From Oncomelania hupensis (Eukaryota > Mollusca > Gastropoda > Littorinimorpha > Pomatiopsidae): a DNA stretch of 64,000 nt. A model generated the notes under the pieces. It did no database searches and was not told the origin of the DNA. It worked only from the letters and a program-made list of their open reading frames with translations. Where the stretch lies: the NCBI GenBank assembly GCA_036898135.1, contig CM072525.1, positions 51,914,299-51,978,298 on the forward strand. The letters are read 5' to 3'. Position 1 is the first letter of the stretch, and each line of letters begins with the position of its first letter. The position numbers and the translations under genes are program-made. This document shows, one piece after another, positions 30,676 to 63,605 of the stretch.

Positions 30676-31703
30676 ATATATATCCACTTTCAGAGAGAAA
30701 GTCCCACAGAAACTACACGCCTTGATGAGTTCTCAGTGCTTTCTACCTCTTCACTTTTCACAATAATCTTTTCTTCTTTTCTTTCTTTATCTTTCTTTTC
30801 CTGGCCTGACACACTGACTCTACATCATATAACCACACACAGCCTTGGGACACAATAATCGAGTGAGCGACAATGCCCTGACTGCAAGCTATTCATTCTT
30901 CCATTGGTTCAACAATTTCGGACAATGAAAAAAATAGATTTATTTTGAAAACCCAAATTACTTACACCCAAACATAGACATATTTATTAAAAACCGGAAA
31001 ATTCCCGTTCTCTACATTACCCCTTACATGCACTTAAAAACGGATAGGGCATAATATTTAAAACAGTGAAATGTACCACACACATTTATAAATTTATAAG
31101 CGAATTTATCACAGTGGCTACAAAGTCTAATGGATCTATATTCTATCATAATAATAAAATAATAAAATAAATAGTAAAAGTAAAAATCAGACTACAAGCA
31201 GCACAAAAAATAATTTTAAGTGGTTGTTGTGAAACATGGCAACCTAGCAAAATATAGCACAGCATTGATCATATTAGGCATGGTAGCCTTCAAACATTTA
31301 CATTTTCCACAACTGAAAGTGTGTAAAACTACTTGTCAGAATATAATATGAAAAGTCAATTAAAAAGTAGATTAGCCCATCAGTGGTTGGTATGTTTACA
31401 TCTGGTGCATGTATGTACACCATGTAACTTAGATTAGAAATTGGGCTCATATCCTCATTAAAATAATTGTCTCTCTCCCCCCACCCCTTGCAAACACTCA
31501 TTTACACTCTCCTACACACATATATATATATACTTCATGCATAATAATACAAGCTTTAAAAAAGCAAGCAAAACACACAAACATAGGCACCCACACATAT
31601 ACACACCTTAGCATAGAAGCCTAGGACTGCACATTGCATGTATAAAATACTGGCACACAGAATATTTATTATTTAATCACTTTTATATAGCCTAACTCAT
31701 TAA
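30676..31703. other. Non-coding, possible LTR-like segment
   Basis: AT-rich DNA without a gene. CCCGTTCTCTACATTACCCC near 31,000-31,018 would, on the minus strand, read as a purine-rich tract next to TGTAGAGAACGGG and could mark an LTR edge. I found no second copy and no duplication. Confidence 0.3.
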
Positions 31704-31744
31704 CTTCCTGTGATAGATTAAGGTACAAGAACCACTACTCTTGC

Positions 31745-34700
31745 ATGATTGTGACTAACAAGGGACGACTTTTGGCTGAGAAAGAACTGACTTTTGCTAA
31801 AGCGTTAGAAGTGGCCACTGCTATGGAACTTGCGGAGAAGAGTGCCGCTACACTACAGGGCAGCTGTTCCAGTGGGGCTACTTCTATTGATGGCTCTGTC
31901 AGTGTGCATACAGTCAACAATGCGGGTACTGCTGTTTCTGAGGACGTTCAGTTCATGAAGAGAGGGAAATCGCCGAAAGACATTGAGTGCTGGTTTTGTA
32001 AAGGCAAAGGTCATATGCAGAGACAGTGCCAGCAGTATCGTGCTGAGAGAGTGAAACGTCGACAGGCGAGAAGTGATCGCAAATCTGAAAAACGTGGCAC
32101 AGTGAAAAACGTTGACGATTCGGACTCTGATGGGGAAGTGTTCACGATGCTCAGATCACAGAATAAGGAGAAGCCTTACTTGGTGACCGTCGAGTTGGAC
32201 GGTGTTCCTGTTGAAATGGAGTTGGACACTGGCGCTTCACTGACAGTGATCAGTGAAGAGGCTCTGAGAGCTTTGAAACTTTCGGCGCACCTGCCTCTTC
32301 AAAAATGCAGCAAGCGACTGAAAACATATACAGGGGATGATATTCCTGTGCTGGGTGAGTGTCAATTTGCTGTGAGGTACAAAGGCAGTGCACCTATGAC
32401 ATTGAAGGTAATTGTGGTGAAAGGAGAGGGACCGAATCTGCTGGGACGAGACTGGCTCAAACATTTGAAATTAGACTGGTCTGAGATTTTTTCGCTGCAT
32501 TCCACCAAGTGCGGTATGGAGAACGCTGACCTACAGCAGATCCTGGGGGAGAACGCAGAGGTGTTCGATGAGGTACGAGGCACCATTCGAGGAGTAAAAG
32601 CCAGCATTTTCGTTGATCCTTCAGAGAAACCTCGATACTTCAAACCGCGCCCAGTACCCTATGCTCTGCGCGAGAAAGTGAGCCAAGAACTTGATCGTCT
32701 TGAGGCTGAAGGCACGATTGAGAAAGTGCAGTTTTCTGACTGGGCAGCGCCAATCGTTACGGTCGTTAAACCTGACAAAAGCCTCCGCATTTGTGGCGAT
32801 TACAAGGTTACGGTGAACTCAGCCTCAAAATTGGATAATTATCCAATACCCAAGACTGATGATCTGTTAGCAGAACTGGGCGGTGGAAAGTTCTTCTCCA
32901 AACTTGATTTGACGCAGGCGTATCAACAGCTTGAATTGGATGATGCGTCAAAAGAGTTCACCACCATCAACACACATCAGGGGCTGTATCGTTACAACAG
33001 ACTGCCCTATGGCGTGTCATCAGCTCCAGGCATATTTCAACGAACGATGGAGAATTTGCTACGTGGTATTGCCAAAGTGTATGTCCGCATTGATGACATT
33101 TTGGTGGCAGGTACAACACGTGATGAACACCTGCAGACATTGCGGACTGTGCTGCAAAGACTGAAGGAGGCTGGAGCGAAGCTGAAGAAGAAAAAGTGTG
33201 TCTTCATGGCTACGGAAGTGGTCTATCTTGGTTTGAAGATCGACCAGAATGGCGTCCAGCCGGTTCTTGAGAAAGTAGAGGCTATTCAAGAGATGCCTCC
33301 GCCCACAGATGTGAAGCAGCTTCAGGCTTACCTTGGAATGGTGAACTATTATTCCAGGTTCCTGCCGAATTTGTCCACAGCGTTAGCTCCGTTATACGCC
33401 TTGCTGAAGAAGGGGGTAGCATGGATGTGGAGCGATCAGCAGGAACAAGCGTGGATTTACTCGAGGATGTTGCTGCAGTCACCAAAGGTCCTCATTCATT
33501 TTGACTCCAGTAAAGATATTGTATTGTCATGTGATGCCTCCAGTTATGGATTGGGTGCTGTGATTTCTCACAGACTGAAGGACGGTAGTGAGAGGCCTGT
33601 GGCGTTTGCATCTCGAACTATGAACAGTGCTGAACAGAACTACAGCCAAGTGGAAAAAGAGGCCTTGGCAGTCGTTTTTGGTGTTAAGAAGTTTCACCAG
33701 TATCTGTATGGGCAGAAGTTTGAGATCCATACTGATCATAAGCCCCTTCTGGGACTGTTTAATGAACACAAGCAAATACCCGCCATGGCGGCAGCCAGAA
33801 TTCAAAGGTGGGCTCTCACTCTGTCTGCTTACGAATACACAATGAAGTTCAAGGAGGGCAAGAAGCACAGCAACGCCGATGGCCTGAGCAGGCTGCCTCG
33901 TAAGGTGACGGAGAGTGTGAAGCCTGAGTATGGTGAGACAGTACTTCTGATGGAGCAAGTGGAGACCATGCCTGTTACAGCCAGGCAGATTCGTCAGTGG
34001 ACGAACCGAGATCCCGTGCTGTCTAGGGTGAAGGACTATGTTTTGAAGGGATGGCCAGACAGTATGAGAGACAAACGCCTTCAACCCTACTTTGTGAGAA
34101 ACACGGAACTGAGTGTCGTTGATGGGTGTGTGCTCTGGGGCACACGGGTGGTTGTACCACCGAAAGGGCGTCAGCGCTTATTGAACGACCTGCATGAATC
34201 ACATCTAGGTATGTGCAGAATGAAGGCCTTGGCACGCTCGTATATTTGGTGGCCGAACATTGATAGTGAAATTGAATCTGCAGTGAGAAACTGTATTGAA
34301 TGTCAGACTCACAGAAACATGCCGAGTTCAGCGCCTCTTCACCCATGGGAGTGGCCGAATCGTCCTTGGAGCCGACTGCATGTAGACTATGCAGGTCCAT
34401 TCTTGGGCAAGATGTTCCTGGTTGTCATAGACGCTCACTCAAAGTGGATGGATGTTTACCCTCTGAGCACGTCGAAATCAGCGGCTACCATCGAGAAACT
34501 GCGGCAGTCGTTTGCCATACATGGGTTGCCAGAGACGTTAGTGTCGGATAATGGGACATGTTTCACCAGTGAGGAGTTTCAAGAGTTCATGCAGAAGAAT
34601 GGCATCAAGCACATCAAGTCAGCTCCGTATCACGCTGCTACTAATGGACTGGCTGAACGAGCGGTGCAGACGTTGAAGCAAGGTCTGAGGAAGATGAAAT

Positions 34701-35437
34701 CAGGCTCTATTGAGACGCGGGTGTCGCGTTTCTTGTCCATGTATCGTGTCACACCTCAGACAACGACTGGACAATCCCCGGCCGAGCTGCTCTTTAATCG
34801 GAAGGTCAGAACACGGCTGGATCTGGTTCAGCCCTGTATGGAACGACAGGTGGTACAGAGACAACTACAGCAGAAGCTGAATCATGATCGTTCAAACGTC
34901 AGGAGTTACGCGGCAGGTGACCGGGTGTACATCAAGAACTTTTCCACGGGTCCTAAATGGATGTCGGGAATCGTAATGCAGATGACGGGACCCTTGTCAT
35001 ACATGATCAAGTTGTCGGATGGTCGGGTGTTGAAGAGACATGTGGATCATGTATTACCTCGCGCTAGCGAGTCAGAAGAGGTGGGAGATTGGAACTGTGT
35101 TGAACCCGAAACTATCCAAGCTCCGCCATGCGGTGATCGGCCTCCACCGCAGGTGGCGGACCAACCCACGGGTCCATCAGTAACACCGGTACCATCGACG
35201 TCTGTCGCAGGTTCGATGCCGACATCACAATTGCCGGCGCTGCCTGGGGACACTGTTGCAGACCATGGTGCACAGACGCCGCTGATGTCTAGTTCCATGC
35301 CAGCAGTGCCGTCATGTCCATCACTGGCATTAGAGTGTCAATCGCTGGCACCAGTGGGTCATCCACAGCGTCAGCGGAGATTGCCTGCGCATCTCAAAGA
35401 CTTTGTGCTCCAACGGTTTCGAGATGTCCGGAAGTGA
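31745..35437 (+). CDS. Gag-Pol polyprotein (PR-RT-RH-IN)
   Basis: A 1,230-codon frame with no stop. The first seven codons (MIVTNKG) come from the LTR and run in frame into gag (RLLAEKELTFAKALEVATAM). CCHC knuckle CWFCKGKGHMQRQC (about 82-95); protease ELDTGASLTVIS (about 158-170); reverse transcriptase with VRIDDILVAG (about 447-456); RNase H with CDASSYGLGA (about 597); integrase zinc finger (about 820-856) and core residues in LHVDYAGPF, VSDNGTCF and NGLAERAVQ (about 878, 933, 968). A Pro/Ser-rich tail follows from about 1,130. The capsid N-terminal part is missing, so particles are unlikely, but the enzymes look whole. Confidence 0.9.
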   Translation: MIVTNKGRLLAEKELTFAKALEVATAMELAEKSAATLQGSCSSGATSIDGSVSVHTVNNAGTAVSEDVQFMKRGKSPKDIECWFCKGKGHMQRQCQQYRAERVKRRQARSDRKSEKRGTVKNVDDSDSDGEVFTMLRSQNKEKPYLVTVELDGVPVEMELDTGASLTVISEEALRALKLSAHLPLQKCSKRLKTYTGDDIPVLGECQFAVRYKGSAPMTLKVIVVKGEGPNLLGRDWLKHLKLDWSEIFSLHSTKCGMENADLQQILGENAEVFDEVRGTIRGVKASIFVDPSEKPRYFKPRPVPYALREKVSQELDRLEAEGTIEKVQFSDWAAPIVTVVKPDKSLRICGDYKVTVNSASKLDNYPIPKTDDLLAELGGGKFFSKLDLTQAYQQLELDDASKEFTTINTHQGLYRYNRLPYGVSSAPGIFQRTMENLLRGIAKVYVRIDDILVAGTTRDEHLQTLRTVLQRLKEAGAKLKKKKCVFMATEVVYLGLKIDQNGVQPVLEKVEAIQEMPPPTDVKQLQAYLGMVNYYSRFLPNLSTALAPLYALLKKGVAWMWSDQQEQAWIYSRMLLQSPKVLIHFDSSKDIVLSCDASSYGLGAVISHRLKDGSERPVAFASRTMNSAEQNYSQVEKEALAVVFGVKKFHQYLYGQKFEIHTDHKPLLGLFNEHKQIPAMAAARIQRWALTLSAYEYTMKFKEGKKHSNADGLSRLPRKVTESVKPEYGETVLLMEQVETMPVTARQIRQWTNRDPVLSRVKDYVLKGWPDSMRDKRLQPYFVRNTELSVVDGCVLWGTRVVVPPKGRQRLLNDLHESHLGMCRMKALARSYIWWPNIDSEIESAVRNCIECQTHRNMPSSAPLHPWEWPNRPWSRLHVDYAGPFLGKMFLVVIDAHSKWMDVYPLSTSKSAATIEKLRQSFAIHGLPETLVSDNGTCFTSEEFQEFMQKNGIKHIKSAPYHAATNGLAERAVQTLKQGLRKMKSGSIETRVSRFLSMYRVTPQTTTGQSPAELLFNRKVRTRLDLVQPCMERQVVQRQLQQKLNHDRSNVRSYAAGDRVYIKNFSTGPKWMSGIVMQMTGPLSYMIKLSDGRVLKRHVDHVLPRASESEEVGDWNCVEPETIQAPPCGDRPPPQVADQPTGPSVTPVPSTSVAGSMPTSQLPALPGDTVADHGAQTPLMSSSMPAVPSCPSLALECQSLAPVGHPQRQRRLPAHLKDFVLQRFRDVRK

Positions 35438-42109: not shown

Positions 42110-44064
42110 CATTTGTTGCGGGAGATATTGCAAAAATGAAAAAAATAGAAAAAGAATTTCGTTGGAAAATTGCAAAGAGCAAAAAAGAATACAAAGATAA
42201 GGTGCAAGAAAAATTGACAGAAAGGAATGGAAAGGGGGCATGGGATGGGTTGAATACAAGGATGGGGAGGAAAGTACAAAAGCAAGGTGTTAAAAAAATG
42301 ACGATCCTGTTTCACTCTAAAATGATTTAAACAAATTTTATGCTCGTTTTGATGATCATGATTTTTCACAGGAAGTTGAGGATGTTTGTCTGCCTCTGCT
42401 TACCATTCCAAATAACATTACCATTAACGAAAATGATGTTAAAAAGGTTCTTTCAAATGTCAATCCTCGCAAGGCTTGTGGTCCTGACAGGGTGGGGGGG
42501 GGGTAAAGTTTTAAAAGAATGTTCTAGTCAGTTATCTTGTGTTTTTACTCGCCTTTTTCAACTTTTAATGAATTATCATTTTGTTTCAAGATCATGGCGC
42601 ACCTCTACTGTAATACCAGTTGCTAAAAAGCCAAATGCCAGAGAAATGAATGATTTTAGGCCTGTTGCCTTGACCTCGGTGGTTTGTAAATGCATGGAAA
42701 AACTGCTCTGTAATCAGCTGACTACCTCAGTGGCAAATCGCATGGACCCTCTGCAATTTGCTTACAAGGCAAAACGCGGGGTAGAGGATGCAACCTTGAC
42801 CTTACTTGATTCTGTTTCTAGACACCTTGATACCTCAGGTACTTTTGTCCGGTGCCTTATGATGGATTTCAGTTCTGCATTTAATACGCTTCAACCCCAC
42901 TTACTAATCAAGCGTCTTCTTGACCTTGACGTTAGTCCAGGACTCGTTCTCTGGATTCGTTCCTTTCTCCGCGATAGGCCACAGAGGGTCAGTATTAACG
43001 GTATCTTGTCCGACGAGATTATTGTAAACACTGGGGCGCCGCAGGGCTGTGTCCTCTCGCCGGTTTTGTTTTCTCTCTATACCAACGAACTGACGTGCGA
43101 CACCAGCATTTTTACTTTGATAAAGTTTGCGGATGATATGGCTCTAATAGGCAGGCTGAAAGATGAACAATCTCTCTCGCAATACTTCGATTTTACTTGT
43201 ACTCTTCTTACCTGAGACAGTTATTTAAAGCTAAACGTAACTAAAACTAAAGAAATTTGCTTTGAAGAACACCGTGCGAGAGATCCTGCCCTGCTTCGCC
43301 CCCTGAAAATTGCATCTGAAAATGTAGAACAGGTTGAAACTTTTAAGTATTTAGGGACGGTTTTAGAAAAGAACTTGAAGTTCAGTGATCATGTTGGTTT
43401 TATTTGCAAAAAGGACAATCAAAGTATGTATCTAGTAAGAAAGTTAAAAAAATTTGGGGTCAATGTACATATCTTAGAAATAGTTTACAGATCTCTAGTA
43501 GAAAGTATTCTATGCTTTAACATTGTTACCTGGTTCGGAAATCTTGGCGTTAGAGACAGGAACAGACTCAACCGTATTGTAAACCTAGCTAGCAGAGTGA
43601 TAGGAAAGACACAAAAGCCAATAACAGAAATATATAAAGATTCCGTAAAAAGTAAAGCTAGAAAGATCATGTCTGATAACAGTCATCCCATGTGTAGATC
43701 ATTTGAACTGTTGACCTCAGGTCGGAGGTTTAGAACCCCGGCCTGGAAAAGAAACTTGTATGGCCACTCTTATGTACCAAGTGCAATCCGCATCTTAAAT
43801 TTAAGCAAACTGTAATACCCCCAGTTACCTACATTTGTTCTTCTGTGTACTGTGATGATGTAATGTAATATAATGTGAGTTGTGCAATGAAGTAAGCTAT
43901 TTGTTATGCGTATGATTGTCTTAATTAATGTTTTATATAACAAAAACTGTTAATATTTCTTTTAGTTTTTAATCTTTCCGTCTTAGTCTTTGTGCTACTA
44001 AAGACAAATTTAAATGTTATTGTATTTTAACTATGGACAATAAAGATTCGTATTCGTATTCGTA
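42110..44064 (+). mobile_element. L2-like LINE, 5'-truncated
   Basis: Coding similarity starts near 42,130 (KIAKSKKEYKDKVQEKL) and continues through reverse transcriptase to 43,815; the 3' end is an ACAATAAAGATTCGTATTCGT tail with three ATTCGT units (44,037-44,064). Microsatellite-like 3' tails are typical of L2/CR1. The left edge is approximate. Confidence 0.75.
42136..43815 (+). pseudogene. L2-like LINE ORF2 (reverse transcriptase), frameshifted
   Basis: Three frames together: pre-RT helix (42,136-42,330); reverse transcriptase with VIPVAKKPNAREMNDFRPV, MMDFSSAFNTLQPH, NTGAPQGCVLSPVLFSLYTN and KFADDMALIG (42,340-43,215); thumb and C-terminal domain with ETFKYLGTVLEKNLKFSDH, SILCFNIVTWFG and LLTSGRRFRTP (to 43,815). 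Breaks occur near 42,310, at a G10 run near 42,490-42,505, and at a TGA at 43,213-43,215 in the CTLLT(stop)DSY region. The FADD catalytic motif is intact. Confidence 0.8.
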
Positions 44065-44294
44065 TAGCCAGTTGGTTGGTCAGTTTTTAATAACAATTTT
44101 AAATGTCTGCCATTTTTATGTTGCTCTTTTAATTTAATTCTGTCCTGTTTTGATTCAATTACGTCATTTTCTTTTAAACAGTTATCAAAGCTGTCACGGT
44201 CTTTGCAATAAAACAGGCACACGAATTTAATTTGTTCTCTAAAATCAGTTAAAATCGAGTTATACACGGTAGCTTGGTGGCTATATGAATGCAA
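44065..44294 (-). CDS. Unrecognised fragment cut by the LINE
   Basis: An open frame starting MHSYSHQATVYNSILTDFRE, rich in charged residues, runs left until it enters the L2-like LINE tail at 44,064. No known domain. It is next to the viral-type relic region and may belong to it. Confidence 0.25.
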
Positions 44295-44965: not shown

Positions 44966-45169
44966 ATGGAAGAGGTGGTAAGTAACAAATATCACATTAA
45001 AATGGATACTGAATCTCAAATAGCTCATACAGAACAGTATCACAGAGATAAGTTAAACTCATTATGCAGATTGTGTGGAGAAAGATCGGAAAGGCCAAGA
45101 GAAAATATACCTTCTCAAGCGCAATGGATACCTGCACTATACAAAACTATATCTTCATCATCGTCATAG
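44966..45169 (+). CDS. Small LCRLCG zinc-finger-like frame
   Basis: The likely start is the internal ATG giving MDTESQIAHTEQYHRDKLNS, then LCRLCGERSERPRE, a C-x2-C pair with upstream His typical of the first half of a zinc finger; it ends in a serine run. Such LCRxCG openings are found in several transposase-type proteins. It converges on the capsid relic. Its last part (from about 45,112) is repeated in inverse orientation near 54,510-54,530. It may be a first exon of a longer gene or a fragment. Confidence 0.35.
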   Translation: MEEVVSNKYHIKMDTESQIAHTEQYHRDKLNSLCRLCGERSERPRENIPSQAQWIPALYKTISSSSS

Positions 45170-45396
45170 TCATCACCATTATCATTATCTGTGATTTCTA
45201 TTTCTTTATTCACACAAACAAGACATGAACAAAACACCTTTTCAGACACACTTTTTGTCTGTATCTGTACTTGTTCGTATTTTTCTCACATGCACATAAA
45301 TTGCAAATGCATGATTTTGATTATTATTGGTCTTTGTCCTGCATGGCTCGTGAAATGATTGTAAACTTTGTATGTGTTTAGTTTTGTTTTCAATAA

Positions 45397-46370
45397 TCAG
45401 TATTTCTTTACTTTCTTTGTAGCTTGTGGGAATTCTGCATTATTGTATTTTATCAGTACACCTTTAAAACTTCGAGCAGGTGAATTTATGTTGATGGTCC
45501 ATAGTGCATCTAATAAATCTTTATTAAACTGTCTGTAGCGGATGATCCTATCATAATGAATCGCTAGTTTGTCATATTGGTCCCTAATCATCCTACTGAG
45601 TTCAGTGTGAGTGACCACTTCATATTCAAGCGCAATGTCTGAGATTGTAGTCATTGTCAGAAGTATTGATTACTTGAGAGTAGTCATTAAAACTAATTTC
45701 GTAAGACAGCCTGTCGTTAAATGAACCCTGATGAAATGGCAGATGACTGTGTAGCAGTTCAAAATCGAGTGGAAAATAAAACCTGTTTTTGTACACAGCA
45801 GCTAATGCATTTCCACCTTTGAAGTGATAGCATCGCCAGCTTTGTTTCGAAGTTTTGCCACATTGGGGGTTTGAATCCCTTGACCAACCAAATCTTCCCT
45901 TTCATATTTACTCAGCCACAGATTCGTGTAACAAAACAAAACACCAGCATCATCGATACTTTGGATTTCTCACCCATCAAGTTTAATAACCATTCTTTTA
46001 ATTATAGCTCTGCCTAGATTGTTCACTATGGTTCTGTTAGGATCATCGTCAGAATTTAGACTAATTTTAAATCCCAATTTAGGACTGCCTGGAACTATTA
46101 CATCATCAGGGAGGAGGAGGAACAACGTAGCTTAACGTCCTATTGCATCAGCGTTAAGGACGATCACCACGTCGCCACCCTGACAATAATGATTATCATC
46201 ATCATATCAAAGATGAGATCCTACGGATCTCTTGAGATAATTTTAGCCTAAATTGGGAAATCTTATGGTTAGTAACTGATTAGGTTCTATGCTGCTAGGA
46301 TTGTTTGTAATAATTATTGTGTTTTTTTCGCCTTTGATGCCTAAAGGCGTCCTCAATCGGCATGTAGGGT
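45397..46370 (-). pseudogene. Polinton/adintovirus-like major capsid protein gene, copy 1
   Basis: The N-terminal part is at about 46,320-46,250, then a 136-bp insertion, then 46,110-45,750 (frame with SLNSDDDPNRTIVNNLGRAI and DAGVLFCYTNLWLSKYERED), then 45,740-45,397 with LSYEI, ALEYEVVTHTELSRMIRDQY, YDRIIRYRQF and SPARSFKGVLIKYNN. This matches the double-jelly-roll capsid family of Polintons/Mavericks and adintoviruses as I know it. Several frameshifts and stops break it; it cannot make a capsid. The 63.6-64.0 kb and 58.5 kb pieces are a second copy. Confidence 0.75.
46112..46247. mobile_element. Small insertion in the capsid relic
   Basis: About 136 bp separate CATCATCAGG from TAAATTGGGAAATC; in the copy at 63,955-64,000 these are contiguous, so this is an insertion. 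It contains AACGTAGCTTAACGTCCTAT and a palindrome GATCCTACGGATC. It looks like a short repeat of unknown family. Confidence 0.55.
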
Positions 46371-46425
46371 CTAACAAGTTCCCATAGCTGTGCATTTTTG
46401 TTGTGATAAAAATAATATATTTAAA

Positions 46426-47704
46426 ATGGCAGAAGGAGGCGAAGCTCCGGATGAAGTGTTTAAACCAAATGAACCTAATGAAGACCTCGACGTTGACACA
46501 ACCAGCAGACTGCTTTCAATGGTAGGAGATGACATGAGCCAAACACAGATTAAGTATAGGAGAAGAATTACATCAAGTAACTGAAACCCAAAAAGCCAGA
46601 AAAATTAATAAGTTTTACAATAACCTCAGGCGTGAGTTACCAGACTATGTTAGTCCCAGCGACTTTGACCTAGACAAAAATAATCACTTGTATATAAACA
46701 CTACTGCATCCGAGAAAAAGGGTAAGAGTTCAGTTAGCTATGTCAAAGAATCCAGATACATTTTACGCCTGGTCTACTTTGAAAGCTAAACTCCCATTGA
46801 CTGTAATAGGATCATTGGGACTTTCTGATAACAGAGCATTGCATCACCAAGCAGTAGCTTCACTTCAGCGAATAGACGAATCGTTACCAAAGTCAGAAAT
46901 AGACCTACAAGACTTAACTGACTGCATTACAAGTAAATACAGAGTTAAAAACCTTACAAACAAATGCGGACACTAATGTTGATCAGGTTATGGAAACTAT
47001 TAATTACCCTCCATTATTGCCACTGTGTGAACTTCTAGGCTTAGATAAAGCTTTACAATCTGTGAGAGGGGAGACAATGACGAATTTAGCCAAACTCAGC
47101 GAGCTCGACAAACATAGAAAAACAAAAAATCAAACTAGCAGAAGCTGATGACTCGAACTTAAGCATTGAGGTAAAACAGATGATTCAAAAGAGGCTCACA
47201 GACCATTACACAGAATGCTCGGTGAGGCTAGAAGCCTTATCCATAAACAGAGAAAATTTTATAACTAATTTTGCTAGAATAAGAGAAACAGTGCATACAA
47301 TTTTACACGAAGACACTGCACTTGCAGAAAGAATTCAAACGCTGTTCAGAGAGCAAGGTGTTACAATATTTAGAATTCTTACAGCTGTTGGGATGACAAT
47401 AAGCACGCTAGTCCTGGCTCTTACTAGAACCGCAGGCATTGGCGGCAGTGGATCTGAGGGTGGATCCGGTACCGGTGGTAAAACACCGGTTAAAGACTGG
47501 ATTAAGAAAACATTACAAAACATAGCTAACTTATTGAAATGCCTAGGTGACACACTAGTAGACGCACTTCCAGGAATATTAGGTTCTGTATTTTTATGGG
47601 TATTTAATACTACTTCTAAAGTTGTTGTTTGGGCGTCTGAGCATCTGTGGTCTTTGTTTATAATAATATTACTCTGGTTACTTAAAATAATATATCCCCA
47701 TTAA
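46426..47704 (+). pseudogene. Conserved coiled-coil, C-terminal membrane protein of Polinton-like element
   Basis: Pieces in changing frames: DTTSRLLSMVGDDMSQTQIK (from 46,426), KARKINKFYNNLRRELPDYV (about 46,590), NPDTFYAWSTLKAKLPLTVI (46,740-46,976), LLGLDKALQSVRG (about 47,030), and an intact 174-residue end (47,180-47,704). The end has a helix with LHEDTALAERIQTLFREQGV, a hydrophobic ILTAVGMTISTLVLALT segment, a Gly/Ser linker, and two hydrophobic stretches (about LPGILGSVFLWVF and SLFIIILLWLLKII). I recognise the family as recurrent near Polinton-like capsid genes in invertebrate genomes; its function is unknown to me. Four or more indels inactivate it. Confidence 0.6.
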
Positions 47705-47890
47705 CCCAGCAAACAGCAAACCACCTGTAAGCGCTAGACGCGAAACCCCACGATCAATAACAGGCAGGTCCGGCAGGTCAGGCAGGTTTGGTAGGCTTGG
47801 TAGGCTTGGCTGGCTCGATATGCCTAATGGTGTAAATAATGGTGGCGGTGGTGGTAAACTTAAAGGTTCATTTTTTAACTGTATTTATTG
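47690..47890 (-). CDS. Pro/Leu-rich small protein with hydrophobic tail
   Basis: On the minus strand one frame reads LPPPPPLFTPLGISSQ, then repeated LP/NLPDLPD units, and ends VSRLALTGGLLFAGLMGIYY, a likely membrane segment. It overlaps the end of the plus-strand membrane-protein gene and follows the 47,860-49,318 gene on the same strand. No ATG is clear. It may be a separate small gene of the element. Confidence 0.35.
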
Positions 47891-49318
47891 TAGGATTGTA
47901 GCCTATATGAAACTGTGGGTCGGCAATCACTATACTATTGTTGTAGTTAGATATATTTCCTATCCTAAGGTGAAGGTCTGAAGGCAACAAAATTATACAG
48001 TCCTAAACCTATTACGTAATCTACTTTCGATCTAGCATACTTTAAAATGTCTTGATATCTTTTAATACTTGAGGATAAAACTACTGCCGAATTAATAGAA
48101 TCTTCTATGTTGGCTAGAAACTCTTTTTGTGCATCGAAGCTAGTTCCCTCCCCAATGATATTACTTCGTGTTTCTGCTTGAGACCCAAAAATGCACCACA
48201 TATACGTGGGAATAGGTTCATTCAGCCTTCCCCCCCCACTTTGGGTAAATAATAATAATAATAACGGATTTTTATATAGCGGGTACTCCAGCCTATGACC
48301 AGACTCACCACACTTTACATAGTCATTACATATAAATACATGCACTCGATGAAACATCACTTTTGCTACAATACACCAAAAGACGGGACAGTAAAGGTGC
48401 AGACTATTTACAACCATGTACATAAATTACAAAAAAGACAAAAATAGACTATTTACAACTATGTACACAAATGACAAAAAGACAGAAGGTAGAATAGCAA
48501 AAACCTATTCACAGCTATTTATATGCCCGGTTAGGCCCAGGAAGAAAAACAGTATAAATATTTATTTACAGCCGTGTATACACTTACGGATCATAGGCAA
48601 AAGATGAGAGAATGGCAGCGGGATACAAATCAATCTGAATAATGCAGTTTGAAGAGGTGGGTTTTGAGGGCCTTTTTGAATGCTTGTGTTGATTGTATGT
48701 TGCGGATATGGGAGGGAAGGGAATTCCACTGCTTAGGTGCGGAGTAAGCGAATGCACGTTGGCCGTATGTCTTAGTGCGGGTGACGGGAATCTTGAGTGT
48801 CCAAGTTTGATGTGTCTAATATAAAAGTGCTGTATGCTGTACTTCGTTTTTGTCTGATATAAAGTAAAGGAACCTGACTGTTGTGGTTAAATGATGTGAA
48901 TCCAGGTACGTAAGGGCCCGGGTATAAATTACCTACAGCGTATCTAAATAAAGTCCCCATTCCGTGAATGAGGTCTAGTTTTTGTCTGAAGTCTGTTTTA
49001 GTATCAATTCCGAATTCATCTCATAGCCTATGAAACGCTTTTTTTCAAAGCTGTTGTTAAAGGGATTAAATTTTTTTGTCGGTGGGTAACGGAACCTGAA
49101 GTTCAGACAGCACCAGCCTCACTTGATAATATAAATGGAACAGGTAAATAGATTTCAACATAGGATCTGGGTGATTAAGGTGATGAACGTAAGAAACTCC
49201 GCTACCGGTTGTAGCGCATGACACGGCAAAATTAAGTTGATTCTGAAAGAACTGCATACCCCCATTGTTTAGCCATTGATTAGCTAAAAAGTCATTCGTA
49301 ATATCGGGGTTAAGATCC
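47860..49318 (-). pseudogene. Third conserved Polinton-associated gene, split by two insertions
   Basis: N-terminal part: LANQWLNNGGMQFFQNQLNF, GVSYVHHLNHPDPMLKSIYL (49,318-49,066); middle: GTLFRYAVGNLYPGPYVPGF, VPLLYIRQKRS (48,960-48,790). After about 530 bp of inserted repeat it resumes with GGRLNEPIPTYMWCIFGSQA, GTSFDAQKEFLANIEDSINS, SSIKRYQDILKYARSKVDYV (48,235-47,965) and a frameshifted end near 47,860. Domain function not recognised; I know related sequences only as uncharacterised invertebrate proteins. The 5' end is lost at the RTE LINE at 49,320. Same strand as the capsid relic. Confidence 0.55.
48240..48770. mobile_element. Inserted repeat starting with AAT units
   Basis: It begins TAAATAATAATAATAATAAC with GGATTTTTATATAGCGGGTA, contains AGAGGTGGGTTTTGAGGGCC and GGAATTCCACTGCTTAGGTG, and interrupts the gene on either side. 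A near-tandem pair (GACTATTTACAACCATGTAC and GACTATTTACAACTATGTAC) lies at about 48,402 and 48,447. It is a common-looking non-coding animal repeat; family not named. Confidence 0.5.
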
Positions 49319-49320
49319 TA

Positions 49321-50265
49321 TTCCTATCCTATCCTATTCCATAACTCGGAGGTCGTAGGGGCACCACAGATGATCGTTTAATCAGCGCACTCCATCTTTC
49401 CCTGTCCTCAGCAACCCTGATTGTTTCGCTCAGTGTAAAACCAGTCCATTCTCCAATGTTGTCCTCCCACCTCTTTTTCGCTCTCCTTCTTCTTCTACCT
49501 CCTTGCATTGTACCTTGCAGGATGGTCTTTGCAAGACCAGATGATCTGGTGACGTGGCCATACCATCTGGTTTACGTTTTTTTACCACTGTGAGCAGGTA
49601 ATCGTGTTGTCCAATGGCTTGTGTTATGGTCTGTCGGACTTCGGAATTGGTGATGTTTTGGGTATATGAAATGCCTAGAAGTCTTTTTTAGAACCTCATC
49701 TCCATGCTTAGTATTCTTCGTTGGAGATCTGCTGTGAGGGTCCATGTTTTGCAGGCATATAGGAAGATGTAGATGACAAGGGAGCGCAGCAGCCTTACCT
49801 TGGAATGTAGACTGATGGTCCTGTCTTTCCAAATTGCCTTCAACCTCGCCAGGGCAGCAGTTGTTTGTGCGATCCTGGAGAGAACTTCCTGTCGGGACCC
49901 ATTGTCTGGTACAATGGCTTCTAAATATTTAAAGCTATGCACTGTGTTGAGGGATTGGCCTTGGACTTTGATGTCCGTGTTGATGCCATCAGTGTTGTTG
50001 GTCATAATTTTGATCTTCCCTGCACTTATTTTTCCATTCCATAGGCTCTGGAGGTGGTGTCAAGCCTATGTACCAGCTGTTCAAGTTCTTGTTCCTCTCC
50101 AGCCAATCCATCAATGCCATCCGCAAAACCACACTGACGCAAACGAAGCTTTTTGGTTGCATAGCCGGGCCAGCTATAAATATCTTCACCCACCATAGAG
50201 AAAGGGAGCAGAGGCCGCTTTCCGTCTGCTATTGTAGCCACAGGCCCAGTGAAATTTTATAGCAG
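49321..50265 (-). pseudogene. RTE-like LINE, 5'-truncated reverse transcriptase end
   Basis: Minus-strand pieces: GLAGEEQELEQLVHRLDTT (about 50,110-50,050), then NTVHSFKYLEAIVPDNGSRQ, LSRIAQTTAALARLKAIWKD, VRLLRSLVIYIFLYACKTWT and LQRRILSMEMRF (50,005-49,688), then a frameshifted tail. This is the thumb/C-terminal part of an RTE-clade protein. The 3' end is a GGATA repeat (49,319-49,335). It is inserted in the third Polinton-associated gene. Confidence 0.75.
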
Positions 50266-53838: not shown

Positions 53839-54180
53839 GATATAAAATATATGCTTTATTAAATTATGTTTTACAAAATATGTTTTACAGAAACACAATA
53901 TTATAATGTAAAAACCTGTTTACAATGAAGAGTGGAAAACATGACTATCTCTGTGAAAGTGTTAAAAGACAATTGCAGGAACAATGATTAGGTATAGAAA
54001 AACATGTAAGCCCATGATAATTAATATACATATATACAGCTATGTACAACACATACAGTTTTAATTTTAAAAAAAATAATAACAAGCATGCGCATGATAT
54101 AAGGCACACTTGAACATGATAAACACATAAAAAAGTTACAAGTAGAGAAATCAGTGCGGAAAAAGGATAAAATACAATAA
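53839..54180. other. No supported gene
   Basis: AT-rich stretch between the LINE target site and a capsid-gene fragment. It ends at the suggested inversion breakpoint. Confidence 0.5.
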
Positions 54181-54530
54181 TGCAGAATTCACACAAGCTA
54201 CAAAGAAAGTAAAGAAATACTGATTATTGAAAACAAAACAAAACACATACAAAGTTTACAATCATTTCACGAGTCATGCAGGACAAAGACCAATAATAAT
54301 CAAAATCATGCATTTGCAATTTATGTGCATGTGAGAAAAAATACGAACAAATACAGAGACAGACAAAAAATTTGTCTGAAAAGGTGTTTTGTTCATGTCT
54401 TGTTTGTGTGAATAAATAAATAGTATTCACAGATTATGATAACGGTGATGATGGTGATGACTGTGACGGTGATGAAGATATAGTTATGCATAGTGCTGGT
54501 ATCCATTGCGCTTGAGAAGGAACGAGAGAG
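54181..54530 (+). pseudogene. Polinton-like capsid gene 3' end and flank (third piece)
   Basis: Inverted copy of 45,110-45,455. The plus strand first encodes the last codons of the capsid protein (IKYNNAEFTQATKKVKKY and stop, about 54,189-54,243), then the same 3' flank to GGTATCCATTGCGCTTGAGA near 54,500. It lacks the rest of the gene, and the piece at 58,503 lacks just this end, so the two may be one gene cut by an inversion. Confidence 0.65.
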
Positions 54531-55607: not shown

Positions 55608-55979
55608 CCCTGTTAGTCGCCTCTTACGACACCCCGGGAAACGTTGGGTCTATTCTAATTAATGCCCGAACCCACAGAGCACACATTTCTAACATTGTTT
55701 TGAAACCATAATTTGGACTCTTTCATAGAATCTACAAACCGCCATGTTCTGGTTGGCCCTGTCTAGTACCCTACAATATCCGTTTGCCAGCTTTCAATTC
55801 AACCGGACAATAAACACTCAAACTTGAAAATGAGTAGCATGGTTTGAATTACCACTTTGCATTGTATGTATTTTCAGGATGATTGTTTTAAAATAAACTT
55901 AATTTCAGGAAATGCTATCCGCTTTGGTTTCAGAGTACCCAGCCTCATTAATGTTGCTTTTGTATGTGTGGCAAAACAG

Positions 55980-57015
55980 ATGCTGCTACTCCTGCGTTTT
56001 TCATCGATATTAACGATTGCAACTCAGAGAAGTTGGCAATTCAAATCAATGGAACAGAAGGCATTGTCAACGCTTTCATCAATAAACAAACATTAAACAG
56101 ATTTAGTATTTGTCTCTTCCAGATCACTGTTCCACATAATCTTCATCTCAAGGCATATGGACAGTTTGTTGGAGTAGATAAAAGGCCGTGCAACGGTTCA
56201 ACTGTAGTGAGGCTGAACGATGTTAATTTATTCAGTTATCGTTCAAACAACTCTTTGGAATCTAACAAAGACAAAGGTTTATTGTTTTGCACTCCTCGCA
56301 ATCAACTGGACATTAACGCTCTAGGCTTAGTCAATGAAGACCGATTGCCTCTAATTATAGTTCCCGGTAATACACTGTATGTATTGATCGAAGACAGTCA
56401 AATTCCTGAAGACTTTTGGGTGTATTTTGAGGCACTTCAAGACAATGTATTATATGGATCTTTTATCCAATTGAATGAATCACTCACCTCTGGCTTCCTA
56501 ACTCTGCCTGGATTTCAGGAAAACCTTAACTACCCAGTAGGACTACGATTGTCTCACACACTTCATCTTCCAGAAAATTCCGTTTTAATGATCAGCTTTC
56601 ATAGATTTCAAGTGTATAGAGTTTACACTACATACCCTTGTTATTACGATGTTATGGAATTGAGAACTATTGACCTTGACGGTACAACTACAGTACTTTG
56701 GCAGACATGTGGTGAACAACACATCATGGCAACGCTGTACGTTACCTCCGTTTTCGTATATTTTGAAAGCAAGGAAATTCCATCTGCGTTTATCCGCACA
56801 CCATCCAGCGGCATTTTAATGCATTATTCATACCACAAACTCAACGAGTCAATCACTCAACTGTCCAGTGGTCAGTTTAACTGCTCAAGACACTACAAGG
56901 CGTTCCGGCAACACCTGGACTGTAACTTAAGACAGGAGTGTCAGGAAGGGGAGGACGAGACAGAAGACTGTCCTTACACCAGTTATCAATGCAGACCAGA
57001 ATCTCTACACATTCA
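55980..57015 (+). CDS. Host exon: two CUB-like domains plus LDL-receptor class A
   Basis: A long open frame. Exon edges are inferred: acceptor TTTTGTATGTGTGGCAAAACAG before 55,980 and donor ATTCAG/GTAGCC after 57,015. First CUB-like block: INDCNSEKLAIQINGTEG to VYFEALQDN; second: GFLTLPGFQENLNYPVGLRL to FVYFESKEIPSAF. Then the LDLa module with CSRHYKAF, LDCNLRQECQEGEDETEDC, with the acidic calcium-binding residues kept. N-glycosylation sites are frequent (for example INGT, LNES). In molluscs such modules belong to large receptors, including GRL101-like receptors with leucine-rich repeats and seven membrane helices. No other exon of the gene is seen here. It looks selected, unlike its surroundings; a lone duplicated exon is possible. 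Confidence 0.65.
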
Positions 57016-57600
57016 GGTAGCCATTTGTTGTTACAGTGTTGTATGTGATAGATAAGAAAACTGAACCTTTAACGCCCCACCATCTTCACCCCCTAATTTA
57101 TCTTAAAACATGAGCTTTTTGAGTACTTTAACACCACACTCTTCACTCATTCCTCACCCACCCTATTTCTTTAAAAAATATATGCTATTTTAAAGCGTCT
57201 TAAATCATGTTTTGAATTAAGCCCCTCATTCTCAAAATACATTTTTTTCACTAACTACTCATGCCCCACGCCCTCGCATGCAATCTTTCCTTAAATAAAA
57301 GCAGAAAAAGGCAATCGCCAAAGTCAAACGAAGCTCTCCATGTGTTACGAAATGATGCTTGCATGACTATGACTAGTTAAACATTAAAAATTATTGCTGT
57401 TGCTTCTAATTCTGTTCGATTTACACAGATTAGCATTTCGCAACGGTATACTTTGTTAAGATGAGCATAATTATTATCGACCATATTTAATAGTTGCGTC
57501 TCTTGATTTGCTTTTGTTAGTTCTCACCAGTAGGCTAATAATACTATTCCCCATTTCCTGCCTAGAACCAAGAAGGCACTGTTATATACATAAGCCTAAA
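57016..57600 (+). other. Probable intron, AT-rich
   Basis: It follows the GTAGCC donor. No open frame or known repeat. Confidence 0.4.
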
Positions 57601-58495
57601 CTTTACAGTGAAGTGAAGTGAAGTAAGTAGATTACCGTCCCCGGACACATAAGCATATAGGGGACTTGGCTGGAAGACTGCCGATGAATAAGAAGGCGTG
57701 TTGAAGAAGATGACAACGGTGAAATAAGAGGTCATGATGCTGAAGACAAGTCGCTTGAAGATGGAGCGCTCGAAGGCAGCTACGACAAACGGAGTAGGAA
57801 ATCAGAATGCGTCAGTAGAGCCGATGTAGTAAGAAAAACAGTGGAGGAAGAAACGCATGGGTGCGTGCCAGGGTGCCAAAGGTCCGTCCGGGAGGAGATA
57901 TGCCGATGAGGCGCACAAAGAGGAAGTCGATGCGTCCGTGTGAAGATGGCCAAGCAAGCCGCGAAGAGGGTGTAGAGCAAACAGTGGGACGCCGCTGGCG
58001 GTGTAGGCACCTGCAGTCCGGAGTTTGCCAGGCTCCACAGGGAATCCCACGTTGCCCTAACGTAGTGAAAGAGGGAGAGCAACCGATGGTCAGGCGGACG
58101 GAAGTCCAGCGAAGCGGCGCCTGCGACGCAAAACGACCGGCGCAAGGCCAGCGGAGCCCTACAGGTAAGAAAATGTAGGTTGAATGTTGAGTCGGAGATA
58201 CGTCTCGGAATCACCCTCAGGCAATGGAGGCAATGTTGACTTCTGGACTGCCACCCACGGGACGGTGCGTCCTCCTCATCTCATGCCGCCATGTCTGCGG
58301 GACTGAACGATACTCCTAGGAGTTTCCCCGCAGGAAGCAAAGCCGAACTGACATTGGACCGCCGGTAGTCTCGACCTCAGGAATGGCAAGAAGATTGGCT
58401 AAGTCCGCAGTCGGAATGGAGAGCGCCCCTGCGCAGAGCAGGCTGCCACTCCTGCTCAGGCGACGAACGCCGCAAGAATGGTTGAACTTTACAAC
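57601..58495. other. GC-rich block, probably a repeat
   Basis: It starts with GTGAAGTGAAGTGAAGTAAG (57,608-57,628), followed by ATTACCGTCCCCGGACACAT. It is much more GC-rich than both flanks up to about 58,495. Frames are open on both strands (for example 57,780-58,214, minus), but they have no recognisable domain, and length is explained by GC content. It may be a repeat; function unknown. Confidence 0.35.
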
Positions 58496-58502
58496 TTCTA
58501 AC

Positions 58503-58767
58503 AGGTTAATTTATGTTGATGTTCCATAATGCATCTAATAAATCCTGATTATATTGTCTGTAGCAGACGATCCTATCATTATAAATTGCTAGTTTGTCAT
58601 ATTAGCCCCTATTCATCCTACTGAGTTCAGCGTGAGTAATTAATTCATATTCAAGTGCGATGTTTGAGATTGTATAGCTAGCATCATTGTCATAACTAAT
58701 TACAACTTGAGAATAATCATTGAAAATAATTTCGTAAGACAGCCTGTCTTTAACTGAACCTTGATGG
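58503..58767 (-). pseudogene. Polinton-like capsid gene copy 2, C-terminal part
   Basis: The minus strand encodes DRLSYEIIFNDYSQVVISYD, ASYTISNIALEYELITHAEL and, in a shifted frame after a stop, the part matching YDRI; it is lost near 58,503, before the SPARSFKG segment. It is continuous with 63,606-64,000 once the inserted gypsy and one GATGG are removed. Confidence 0.7.
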
Positions 58768-59007
58768 TGTAATATTTGTGAGTTACCTTCTGTAACACAC
58801 ACAGACGCACACACACACACACACATGAACTAAGTATTGGATAAACATGATTACATACTCACCCAGCTAATTAATACATTTGCTGTCTTGAATTTTATTT
58901 GGCATTCTGATGCGAGATTTGAAGCAGAGAGCATGGAATAAAGATTGAGAGACTACACCCATTGTCGTCGTGTCTTCTTTGTGCCTGTTCTGCCTGACTC
59001 TTTTACA
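58768..59007 (+). repeat. Left LTR of the young gypsy
   Basis: It starts TGTAATATTTGTGAG and ends CTGACTCTTTTACA. It includes a CA repeat (58,807-58,824) and a GGAATAAAG polyadenylation-like signal (about 58,935). A hydrophobic-looking frame on the minus strand is LTR sequence. Confidence 0.95.
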
Positions 59008-59024
59008 TGGTGTCAGAGAGAGGA
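59008..59024 (+). other. Primer-binding site
   Basis: TGGTGTCAGAGAGAGG starts directly after the LTR; TGG pairs with tRNA CCA. The tRNA is not identified. Confidence 0.7.
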
Positions 59025-59045
59025 AACGACTTACAACCAGGAAGA

Positions 59046-60320
59046 ATGGCTTCGAATATGCAGAACCCATGCATCCAATGGGACTCCAGAAATCTACAAG
59101 AAGAATGGAGAAAATTCAGACAACACGCAGATCTGATGTTTGCAGGACCCCTGCACAAAGCAACAGAAGCGGAGCGATGTGCCTATCTCCTGATCTGGGC
59201 AGGTGAGAAAGGTAGAGAAGTGTTCAACACGTGGAACCTGTCAACAGAAGATGGACGGAAGCTACAAACACTGTACGACAAATTTGAAAAACACACAACA
59301 CCGAAGAAAAACACCTTGTTCGCCAGGTACATCTTTCTGAACAGAAAACAGCAAGTCGAAGAGACTTTTGAGAAATACATCACAGACATCCGAACTTTGG
59401 TCAAAGACTGCGCATATCGTGAAGCTGACGAAATGGTACGAGATATGATCGTGTGCGGGATCACCTCACAAGACGCCAGAGAGAAACTGCTGCAGGTGGG
59501 TGACCAGCTGACCATGGATAAGGCAATAGATATCGTGAACACACACGAAGCGACTAAGCAACAACTTGCGGTGATGCAGAAAGAAGAGACCGTAGAAATT
59601 GTTAAAATGCGACGACCAGAGAATACTTATACTTCTAGAGACCGTCGACAGTATACCAGCAGAGACAGCAGATACGAGAACAGACAAACCCTCACAAACG
59701 ACTGCAGAAATTGCGGTCAACATCACGGAAAAAAGGCATGCCCAGCGTTTGGTAAACAGTGCAGCAACTGCAAGAAAATGAACCACTTCTCAAAGGTATG
59801 CAGATCGAGAAGTGCAACAAGGACTGTGCACCACGTAGAAAAAGAAGAGAACGAAGACGAAAACGCATCCTTCACTATCGACGTCATTGCAGACGGAAGA
59901 GACGACCCCAACACGGCCTACGCCAACATCGCCATGGAAACGGGCGACGTTCTACGCTTCAAGGTCGACACCGGAGCCCAAACCAACGTAATTCCATACA
60001 AAACGTACAGAAAGATGTCAACACAACCACCATTCAAGCCAGGCAACGCTAATTTGTTTGGGTATGCAGGTCAGAAAATTGACGTCAGAGGAGTTATGGA
60101 TCTCCGCTGTTCCTACAAAAACAAAGAGTACTACGGCACATTCTACGTCGCTGAAACCTCCGGTCACTCACAGCCTGTCATGGGTCTTCAGGCGTCACTC
60201 CAGCTACAAATCATCAAAATGGTGCTGGCTGTCACTCACACCGATCTTACCAAAGAAACGGTACTCACCGAGTACGACCATTTTTTGACAACGGCCTTGG
60301 AAACCTTGAGGGAGAAGTGA
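59046..60320 (+). CDS. gag: Gag-protease
   Basis: I choose ATG 59,046 (MASNMQNPCIQWDSRNLQEE) because the earlier in-frame ATG at 59,007 overlaps the LTR end and primer-binding site. About 424 residues: capsid-like helical region (to about 200), two zinc knuckles CRNCGQHHGKKAC and CSNCKKMNHFSKVC (about 220-251), then an aspartic protease with FKVDTGAQTNVIP (about 305-317) and a GLQASLQLQII end. The last codons overlap pol in the -1 frame, with a slippery heptamer at 60,281. No break; probably functional. Confidence 0.9.
   Translation: MASNMQNPCIQWDSRNLQEEWRKFRQHADLMFAGPLHKATEAERCAYLLIWAGEKGREVFNTWNLSTEDGRKLQTLYDKFEKHTTPKKNTLFARYIFLNRKQQVEETFEKYITDIRTLVKDCAYREADEMVRDMIVCGITSQDAREKLLQVGDQLTMDKAIDIVNTHEATKQQLAVMQKEETVEIVKMRRPENTYTSRDRRQYTSRDSRYENRQTLTNDCRNCGQHHGKKACPAFGKQCSNCKKMNHFSKVCRSRSATRTVHHVEKEENEDENASFTIDVIADGRDDPNTAYANIAMETGDVLRFKVDTGAQTNVIPYKTYRKMSTQPPFKPGNANLFGYAGQKIDVRGVMDLRCSYKNKEYYGTFYVAETSGHSQPVMGLQASLQLQIIKMVLAVTHTDLTKETVLTEYDHFLTTALETLREK
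60281..60287 (+). promoter_or_regulatory. -1 ribosomal frameshift site T TTT TTG
   Basis: In the gag frame the codons are CAT TTT TTG, an X XXY YYZ heptamer. Slipping one base back gives HFF then DNGLETLEGEVNIHLKEGA, which leads into reverse transcriptase. The gag stop is 31 bases downstream (60,318-60,320). A downstream stimulatory structure was not established. Confidence 0.75.
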
Positions 60321-63010
60321 ATATCCATTTGAAAGAAGGCGCAGTTCCGGTTATCCACCCTCCAAGACGCATACCTCACGCATTGAGAGATCGCCTAAAG
60401 CACGAGCTAAACGCCATGGAAAAGGCAGGAGTCATCGCCAAGGTCACACAGCCCACAGACTGGGTCAACTCATTAGTTGTAGTAGAGAAACCTAACGGAA
60501 AATTGCGTATCTGTCTCGACCCCAAAGACTTGAACCTTGCGATTAGACGACCACACTACAGCATGCCAACATTAGAGGACGCGTTGGCAAAGATACCAGG
60601 CGCCAAGTACTTCAGCAAACTCGACGCGAAATCGGGTTACTAGCAAATGACGCTAACTAAGAAAGCATCATATTTAATTACTTTCAATTCGCCATTGGGA
60701 CGATACCGCTTCATTCGAATGCCTTTTGACCTGATCAATTCACAAGACGAGTTTCAAAGAAAAATGGACGAGACGTTTGAAGGCATCCCCGGAGTGGTGG
60801 CGCTGATTGACGACATACTAGTATCTGGGCGTACCAAGAAAGAGCACGACAAAAACCTGAGGGCAGCTCTGGACAAGGCTTCTGAAAAACACATCAAGCT
60901 GAATCCTGACAAGCTCGTCATCGGTGTACAAGAAGTTGAGTACTTCGGTCACGTGATAACGGATGACGGCGTGAAGCCCGACCCTGCCAAAGTAAAAGCC
61001 ATACAAAACATGTCACCGCCAGCTGACAAGAAAGAACTGGAGACCATGCTTGGCATGGTAACCTACCTCTCCAAATTTGCCCCGAATCTTGCCGACATGA
61101 CAAAACCGCTCAGAGACCTCCTTAAAGAGGAGAACGAATTCATTTGGGATTCACAACAACAGTTAGCCTGGGACAACATCAAAACAACACTTGGTAGCCA
61201 ACCTGTTCTTGCGCTCTATGACACGTCCAAGAAAATCACATTGCAGGTTGACGCCAGCAAGTATGGCCTGGGAGCAGCGCTCTTCCAAGACGACAGACCT
61301 GTAGCATACGCGTCAAAATCGCTCAACAAAACAGAACAAAACTACGCCCAAATCGAGAAAGAACTATACGCAATCGTGTTCGGGTGCGAGAGATTCCATC
61401 AGTACATCTACGGCCAGGACCAAGTCCTAGTACAATCAGACCACAAACCTCTTGAAACAATCATGAAAAAGCCACTGGCATCTGCGCCACCGCGCCTTCA
61501 GAGAATGCTGCTGAAACTGCAGAAATACAGCATCAAAGTCGTGCATGTTTCGGGCAAGAAGATCCCTGTTGCGGACACGCTGTCAAGAAAATCACTGCCA
61601 GCTGAACCAAGTGACGTCACAGAAGACCTAGACACACAGATCCACTGTATCGTGAAGAACCTGCCAGTTAGCGATGAAAAGATGAACCTATTAAGGCAGG
61701 CCACCGCTGAAGATCGCAACCTTGATACCCTTAGAGCCTATATTCATCAAGGCTGGCCAGAATCGAGACAGCAATGCCACAAGAAGGCCGAAGACTTCTG
61801 GAATTTCAGAGATGAGCTCTCTGTCATCGACGGCGTCATCTTTAAAGGGGAGAGAATTTTTGTTCCCAAAGCCTTGCGACCCGACATGCTGAGCAAGATC
61901 CACGCAAGCCACCTGGGCGTAGAGAAATGCCTACAGCGAGCGCGAAAACTGCTGTTCTGGCCAAGAATGGCTAACGACATACAGGAAACAATCGTCAAAT
62001 GTGAAATTTGCAACCAGCGACAAAAAGCCAACTGCAAGGAACCCATGATACCACACGAAATACCATCACGACCTTGGCAGAAACTGGCCACAGACATCTT
62101 CACGTGGAACAATAAAAATTACCTCGTGACGGTGGACTTCTACAGCCGCTATTTTGAGCTAGATGAGTTACAGACAACAACGTCAACAGCTGTAATTCGG
62201 AAACTGTCTGCTCATTTTGCCCGCCATTGTATTCCGGAGACGTTGATAAGCGACAACGGCCCGCAGTTCTCCTCCGACGAGTTTGCCAGTTTTGAGACCT
62301 CGTGGGACTTTAAACATATCACCTCATGCCCACGATACCCACAGTCCAACGGCCTGGCAGAAAAGACTGTGCAGACTGTGAAGAACCTTCTTGACAAAGC
62401 AAAGGCAGCTAAAACATCGCCCCTGCTCAGCATCCTGGAATATCGGAACACGCCAGTGGACGACCTGGCCAGTCCAGCACAGCTACTAATGGGTCGTCAA
62501 CTACGATCTGTCCTCCCCACATCCACAAATGAGCTGGAGCCAAAAGTCATCAACCCACAGAAGGTCATGAACAAACACAAACAGTGCCAAACAAGACAGA
62601 AGAATTACTATGATCGTTCAAGTCGTCCCCTTCCAACTCTGAAAACAGGGGAGGAAGTGTTCGTACAACTCGCTCCTGGCGACCACTGGAAACCAGCATG
62701 TGTGAAGTCAGCCGGCAAAACGCCACGGTCTTACCAGGTGCAGACAGATGACGGAAAAACGTATCGTCGTAATCGTCGCTTTATCAGAAAACAACCACGG
62801 CAAAGCTTTATGCCAACGTCATATGAGGACACAGAAAATCTTCCCGATATATACGATGTGAAGACACCAGAAGAAACAAAGAACGAAAAAACTGCCCAAA
62901 ATGGAGCAGACCTGGAACCGCGAGCGGACGAATACACAACCATATGTGGTAGACCTATTAGGCAACCACAAAGACTAAGATACAATCAGAGATTTGACAT
63001 CGAGAACTGA
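60288..63010 (+). pseudogene. pol: Pol (RT-RNase H-integrase) with one amber codon
   Basis: A frame of about 907 codons in the -1 phase to gag. Reverse transcriptase begins VIHPPRRIPHALRDRLKHEL; LICLDP-like block KLRICLDPKDLNLAIRRPHY; then AKSGY, TAG at 60,641-60,643, QMTLTKK. Most relatives have Trp at this position (GYWQ), so TGG to TAG is likely. After it: FIRMPFDLINSQDEFQRKMD, LIDDILVSG, RNase H (LQVDASKYGLGAALFQ), integrase zinc finger (HLGVEKC to CEICNQRQ), core LATDIFTWN, LISDNGPQFSSDEF, NGLAEKTVQ. All catalytic residues are seen except those cut off by the stop. Not functional unless the stop is read through or is a sequence error. Confidence 0.9.
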
Positions 63011-63356
63011 ACCACCAACATTGACTATGATAATCAAAAAATGTTATTGAATGATTTAAATAAATCTTGAATTAGTTCTGATGCTGTGGCAAATACGCGT
63101 CTGCTATTAAGGACTGATATTCTTCATTGCGTCATCAATTGTCAATATGGCTTCTTTTTTTTTTAATTTAACCTCTAGACATGTATTTATATTCGGATTG
63201 AAAATGTTACACTTATGAAATTTGCATGTGGGATTCGTGTGTAAGAATATAGAGGAATGAATGTTGGAATATTTCCACAGACCTATTATTATATTTCCAG
63301 TTGTAAATCCTTCATTTATTTGTTTCGTGCTAATTTTCATTTTGAAAGAAGGGAGA
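63011..63356 (+). other. Gypsy 3' untranslated region and polypurine tract
   Basis: AT-rich, no gene; it ends GAAAGAAGGGAGA (63,344-63,356), a polypurine tract directly before the right LTR. Confidence 0.7.
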
Positions 63357-63600: not shown

Positions 63601-63605
63601 GATGG

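Follow-up and report, generated by a model that had tools for sequence, protein, structure and literature searches.

Remains of a probable Polinton/Maverick-type virus with two conserved partner gene families in the genome of the snail Oncomelania hupensis

We have analyzed a stretch of 64,000 nucleotides of the gastropod Oncomelania hupensis (positions 51,914,299 to 51,978,298 of contig CM072525.1, assembly GCA_036898135.1; hereafter the window) and found that it contains the remains of two insertions of one Polinton/Maverick-type virus. Both are dead, being truncated, interrupted by stops and frameshifts, and invaded by later transposons. The element is very probably an endogenous DNA virus of the Polinton/Maverick type, with about 15-16 kb between inverted repeats and with two partner families beside its capsid gene. 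A first-pass annotation of the window had proposed a relic with three genes within 4 kb, namely a capsid gene on the minus strand, a divergent gene on the plus strand (the plus gene) and another gene on the minus strand (the third gene). Searches by tblastn with homologues placed them on precisely these strands, capsid copy A at 45445-46395 (-), the plus gene at 46426-47704 (+) and the third gene at 47678-49317 (-), and all three are broken, by in-frame stops and frameshifts and, in the capsid and third genes, by inserts.

The layout of the element was obtained from pieces of 38 copies in the host assembly (1.45 Gb searched), all host linkage counts being drawn from copies picked by an unbroken capsid gene. 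In eight host loci with an unbroken capsid, the plus gene divergently adjoined the capsid and an ATPase came next in all eight, split between frames in one of them. The third gene adjoined the plus gene, tail to tail, in each of ten further copies, and past it were found a gene of 233 amino acids (aa), by resemblance an unproven penton candidate, and then genes of 290 and 221 aa. Another ten copies contained the ATPase in all cases and the integrase in nine, with genes of 141, 175 and 152 aa beyond the integrase. The ATPase (P0334, 203 aa) matched Pfam Pox_A32 (E 3e-13) and the 321-aa integrase matched Pfam rve (E 5e-10), both above the curated cut-off. Past the 221-aa gene there is a polymerase-like open reading frame (ORF) of 1158-1159 aa. 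Its 1158-aa version contains the words DANNLYG, KLLNNSCFG and YTDTDS in that order, which we take to be motif-like and ordered as expected of a family B polymerase. An endonuclease VII-like stretch was also detected in this ORF (PHROG E 1.9e-5; slightly under the cut-off in Pfam). Inverted repeats of 105-208 bp flanked three of three copies, spanning about 14.9, 15.7 and 16.3 kb (in the 14.9-kb copy the repeat match was trimmed at the edge). In the two copies with resolvable ends the termini begin AGAGAT and both are bordered by 5-bp target duplications, CACAG and ACTGA. The name Polinton stands because of the rve integrase, the A32-type ATPase, the polymerase-like gene and the terminal inverted repeats. 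Two further observations concern the polymerase-like gene. It was truncated or split in several of the copies L010, L031-L034 and L037, which have an unbroken capsid, and in L036 an rve integrase (6-980, +) lies immediately upstream of it, unlike in the other copies, reflecting either a neighbouring element or a rearrangement.

The size of 15-20 kb, the terminal inverted repeats starting with AG, the rve integrase, the packaging ATPase and a double jelly-roll capsid resembling VP54 are all shared with Polintons/Mavericks (class Polintoviricetes). In vertebrate Mavericks, according to PMC8097293, polB, ATPase, PM and PZ form one module and integrase, mCP, PW, MCP and protease another. The gene order of our element departs from that account, the capsid and the ATPase being adjacent here. 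Compared with these vertebrate elements, it also differs in the lack of a recognized protease, in the endonuclease VII-like stretch of the polymerase-like ORF and in the two uncharacterized membrane-type families. Since both resolvable copies had 5-bp duplications, we have not filed it as a vertebrate-type Maverick. It is a variant Polinton/Maverick, with a differing gene order, a 5-bp duplication and partner genes of its own.

Structure prediction and comparison with the PDB, carried out on P0121, an unbroken homologue of 425 aa of which the relic spans residues 1-276, indicated a double jelly roll, bearing out the first-pass capsid call. The database search for this family gave 115 matches among 1051 candidates. 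The nearest structures were the capsids of PBCV-1 and iridoviruses, ahead of the adenovirus hexon. The likeness to PBCV-1 VP54 and to iridovirus capsids is one of fold, as identity is only about 9-12% and genome size and gene content are different. Together with the A32-type ATPase, this could point to an endogenous giant virus (Nucleocytoviricota) of which a fragment is left. However, the inverted repeats of three host copies are just 14.9-16.3 kb apart, a strong argument as far as the host copies are concerned, and the block has its own integrase. Moreover, the likeness to VP54 was already known for Polinton capsid proteins; for the Hydra Polinton PY protein, VP54 was the sole significant HHpred match according to PMC4028283. 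We regard a giant virus origin as exceedingly unlikely. The combination of integrase and PolB with a capsid of large-virus type has a parallel in meldviruses with a poxvirus-like hexon (Meld23486), as described in PMC11071296.

The first-pass annotation had also named adintoviruses. A true adintovirus relic would have an adenovirus-like hexon, an OTU-domain polymerase and a chromodomain integrase. Capsid and integrase genes are indeed present here, as in those animal-associated elements, and the entry A0A8D9PE51, 'Penton capsid protein [Adintovirus sp.]', turned up at rank 17 in the structure comparison of the capsid. Against this, the capsid is structurally closer to giant-virus capsids than to the adenovirus hexon. 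For the 321-aa integrase Pfam gave only rve at E<=0.1 and no chromodomain. An adintovirus is therefore unlikely, and this half of the first-pass label is not established, while the Polinton half held.

Both neighbours of the capsid belong to conserved families, as the first-pass annotation had claimed. The plus family gave 150 matches among 850 candidates. By hydropathy analysis, 27 of 28 aligned members have hydrophobic segments. These lie towards the C-terminus, the last of them at most 30 residues from it in 24 members, and ahead of these last segments there is an amphipathic stretch (moment about 0.6). In the window the frameshifted plus gene starts with an ATG 30 bp from that of the capsid, in divergent orientation, and host-copy proteins match it in five segments between 46426 and 47653 (+) with 70-88% identity. 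For the third family 98 of 984 candidates matched. A hydrophobic segment close to the C-terminus was found in 31 of 40 members, and the protein also has a proline-rich linker; the C-terminus of the window relic itself fell below the hydropathy threshold. The predicted model was confident (pLDDT 86.1, pTM 0.82) and no match to it was found in the PDB, which is all that we mean by a new fold. The relic corresponds to residues 51-391 of a 391-aa homologue (tblastn with P0236/P0237); P0236 matched four segments between 49314 and 47681 (-) with 58-74% identity, homology ending at 49314. Its stop is at 47678-47680 (-), giving a tail-to-tail overlap of about 27 bp with the plus gene. The gap between tblastn pieces at 48250-48813 contains a fragment of long interspersed nuclear element (LINE) type, where an ORF at 48630-48815 looks by eye like the end of a LINE reverse transcriptase. 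Similar LINE-type sequence at 49318-50260 (right edge approximate; ORFs 49329-50059 (-), again a reverse-transcriptase end by eye) has removed the N-terminus of the gene.

One could suppose that the plus and third genes lie beside the capsid by chance, being genes of the host or accessory cargo. Neither family had a confident profile match of known function; there were only weak ones, such as those of the third family (five of its 40 members matched THB, with E 5.5e-4 at best, and isolated single PHROG matches reached E 3.3e-4). On the other side, their position was constant in the 8/8 and 10/10 host copies, in agreement with the linkage predicted by the first-pass annotation, and this linkage extends outside the genome. 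In Mytilus edulis, the ORF P0325 passes from third-family sequence to plus-family sequence in antisense (E 5e-14), so that the tail-to-tail contact is found there too, and in P0290 third-family and then capsid sequence follow each other within one ORF. We also looked for contigs of equal size among the matches, an indirect test that took 120 listed of the 150 plus-gene matches. Five sizes of at least 3 kb were common to plus and capsid matches, four of them above 180 kb and without a near miss; capsid and third matches shared one and plus and third none. One more size shared by plus and capsid, below 3 kb (1045), came from differing sources. Near misses (within 20 bases) numbered three for plus-capsid and ten for capsid-third, all on contigs below 23 kb. 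Chance neighbourhood is thus very unlikely. Other named hosts among plus or third matches were Mactra antiquata and Elysia marginata. The plus-family sequences P0055 (Acinetobacter baumannii, 492-base contig) and P0099 (Thiodiazotropha metagenome-assembled genome, 1157 bases) are probably contamination by animal DNA.

In the Polinton/Maverick-type virus that we favor, the integrase would insert linear element DNA, making the 5-bp target duplication, the polymerase would copy the element and the ATPase would pack the DNA into shells of capsid protein. The plus protein, with its hydrophobic segments and amphipathic stretch, and the third protein might be located at a membrane, possibly one inside the virion, when particles are assembled or at entry. 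We infer that both are membrane-associated virion proteins with a structural or entry role. Hydrophobic segments were also present in the 221-aa and 141-aa genes, and the plus family is similar in character to the 'membrane-active capsid core' (Macc) class of Buck et al. (PMC11071296). From the counts of hydrophobic segments and the giant-virus-type capsid, we hypothesize that the membrane would lie inside the virion. A broader proposal, possible though in our view doubtful, is that of an animal Polinton lineage, in several molluscs at least, whose virion would enclose a lipid membrane and have a capsid protein of giant-virus type, no recognized maturation protease, at least four membrane-type proteins and a third-gene fold unseen before. 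This lineage would have multiplied in the host recently enough to have left 99 or more unbroken and nearly identical capsid genes.

This capsid count comes from a search of the host genome with P0121 that gave 1345 first-look candidates. The best 99 were scored, and the figures describe these and not the rest: all 99 were of full length and stop-free, with 98-99% identity to P0121, a status biased towards unbroken genes by the choice of the best scores. So many near-identical unbroken capsid genes suggest a recent multiplication of the element in this genome. The ratio of nonsynonymous to synonymous changes (dN/dS) between host copies was 0.14 for the integrase, 0.15 for the 141-aa, 0.13 for the 175-aa and 0.30 for the 290-aa gene (4 copies). 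The capsid value was 0.05 (8 copies), biased by the choice of unbroken copies; the neighbouring genes are less affected by this selection. The comparison covered full copies of the same length, namely 9 of 12 loci for the integrase, 12 of 18 for the ATPase, 4 of 11 for the 290-aa gene and 7 of 11 each for the 141-aa and 175-aa genes; the penton candidate yielded no comparison. One integrase and one 175-aa copy of this set contained a stop. The low ratios suggest that the host copies multiplied through functional proteins.

Several observations weigh against the Polinton/Maverick reading. The polymerase-like ORF was open at full length in only two of six sampled copies and had no polymerase profile or PDB match. 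The penton candidate had no match in Pfam or PHROG and was split in five of ten copies, and no protease, which in Polintons is of adenovirus/Ulp1 type, was recognized among the element ORFs scanned, a subset of those present. The integrase was missing, within the stretch fetched, from one of ten copies. The plus gene was split between frames in three of the eight host loci (L001, L003 and L007), where the adjoining capsid was unbroken. For the ATPase dN/dS was 0.42, a weaker signal than for the other genes, with many copies dropped from the same-length test. The target duplication has 5 bp instead of the 6 bp given for vertebrate Mavericks in PMC8097293, and the terminal repeat of the element was not found in the window.

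The two insertions in the window are probably older than the unbroken host capsid genes, since eight of the latter differ from each other by only 1.3-3.8%. At ungapped sites, copy A was 92.4-93.5% identical to these eight and copy B 87.1-92.5%. Copy A matched residues 1-276 of P0121 with 63% identity over the gapped match (tblastn E 9.7e-115); besides stops and a frameshift it carries an insert of about 138 bp (46111-46248, edges approximate), seen as a gap in the nucleotide alignment with copy B. The first-pass annotation had missed copy B, whose matches to P0121 lie at 58488-58781 and 63633-63998, as well as an ATPase relic at 44061-44264 (-), corresponding to residues 133-200 of the 203 of P0334 (85% identity, E 5e-34), which brings the decayed viral genes of the insertion with copy A to four. 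The first part of copy B (58488-58767, -; residues 173-270, 76% identity) is separated from the second (63601-64000, -; residues 41-162 at 63998-63633, 89% identity), which leaves the window and also aligns to copy A at the nucleotide level, by a Ty3/gypsy-like long terminal repeat (LTR) retrotransposon at 58768-63600 (+). Its LTRs are 97.5% identical and bordered by a 5-bp duplication (GATGG), gag- and pol-like ORFs being recognizable by eye; the match up to 58781 enters the LTR by a few bases. Copies A and B aligned in two blocks with 88 and 83% identity. Within the window, no capsid homology was found past residue 276 in copy A or 270 in copy B; the homology of both (45445 and 58488) ends near the same codon (residues 270-276), yet the sequences beyond are different.

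At the broken end of copy A lies a repeat of about 350 bp (45110-45454) with an inverted copy, 93% identical, at 54166-54520. The pair brackets the relic and a LINE-type element, and it does not match the terminal repeats seen in host copies. No integrase relic of the same element was found in the window. A 367-aa open frame at 55952-57052 (+), without a Pfam match and ending in what resembles by eye an LDL-receptor class A repeat, is perhaps a host exon. Large frames for retrotransposon polyproteins occur at 2517-5759, 11708-16474, 31691-35437 and 60155-63010, and by eye several of these are Ty3/gypsy-like.

Mavericks are listed for all mollusc genomes analyzed in PMC10294476, so the kind of element is not new. 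We noticed no publication on the plus or the third family in the limited collection of literature searched. What is of interest is the copy number, together with the two partner families and a layout that is now defined. An initial guess about three genes has become a block whose arrangement recurs from copy to copy, with two families that accompany the capsid, and the high copy number and the low dN/dS in several genes bear on the question of whether animal Polintons are living viruses.
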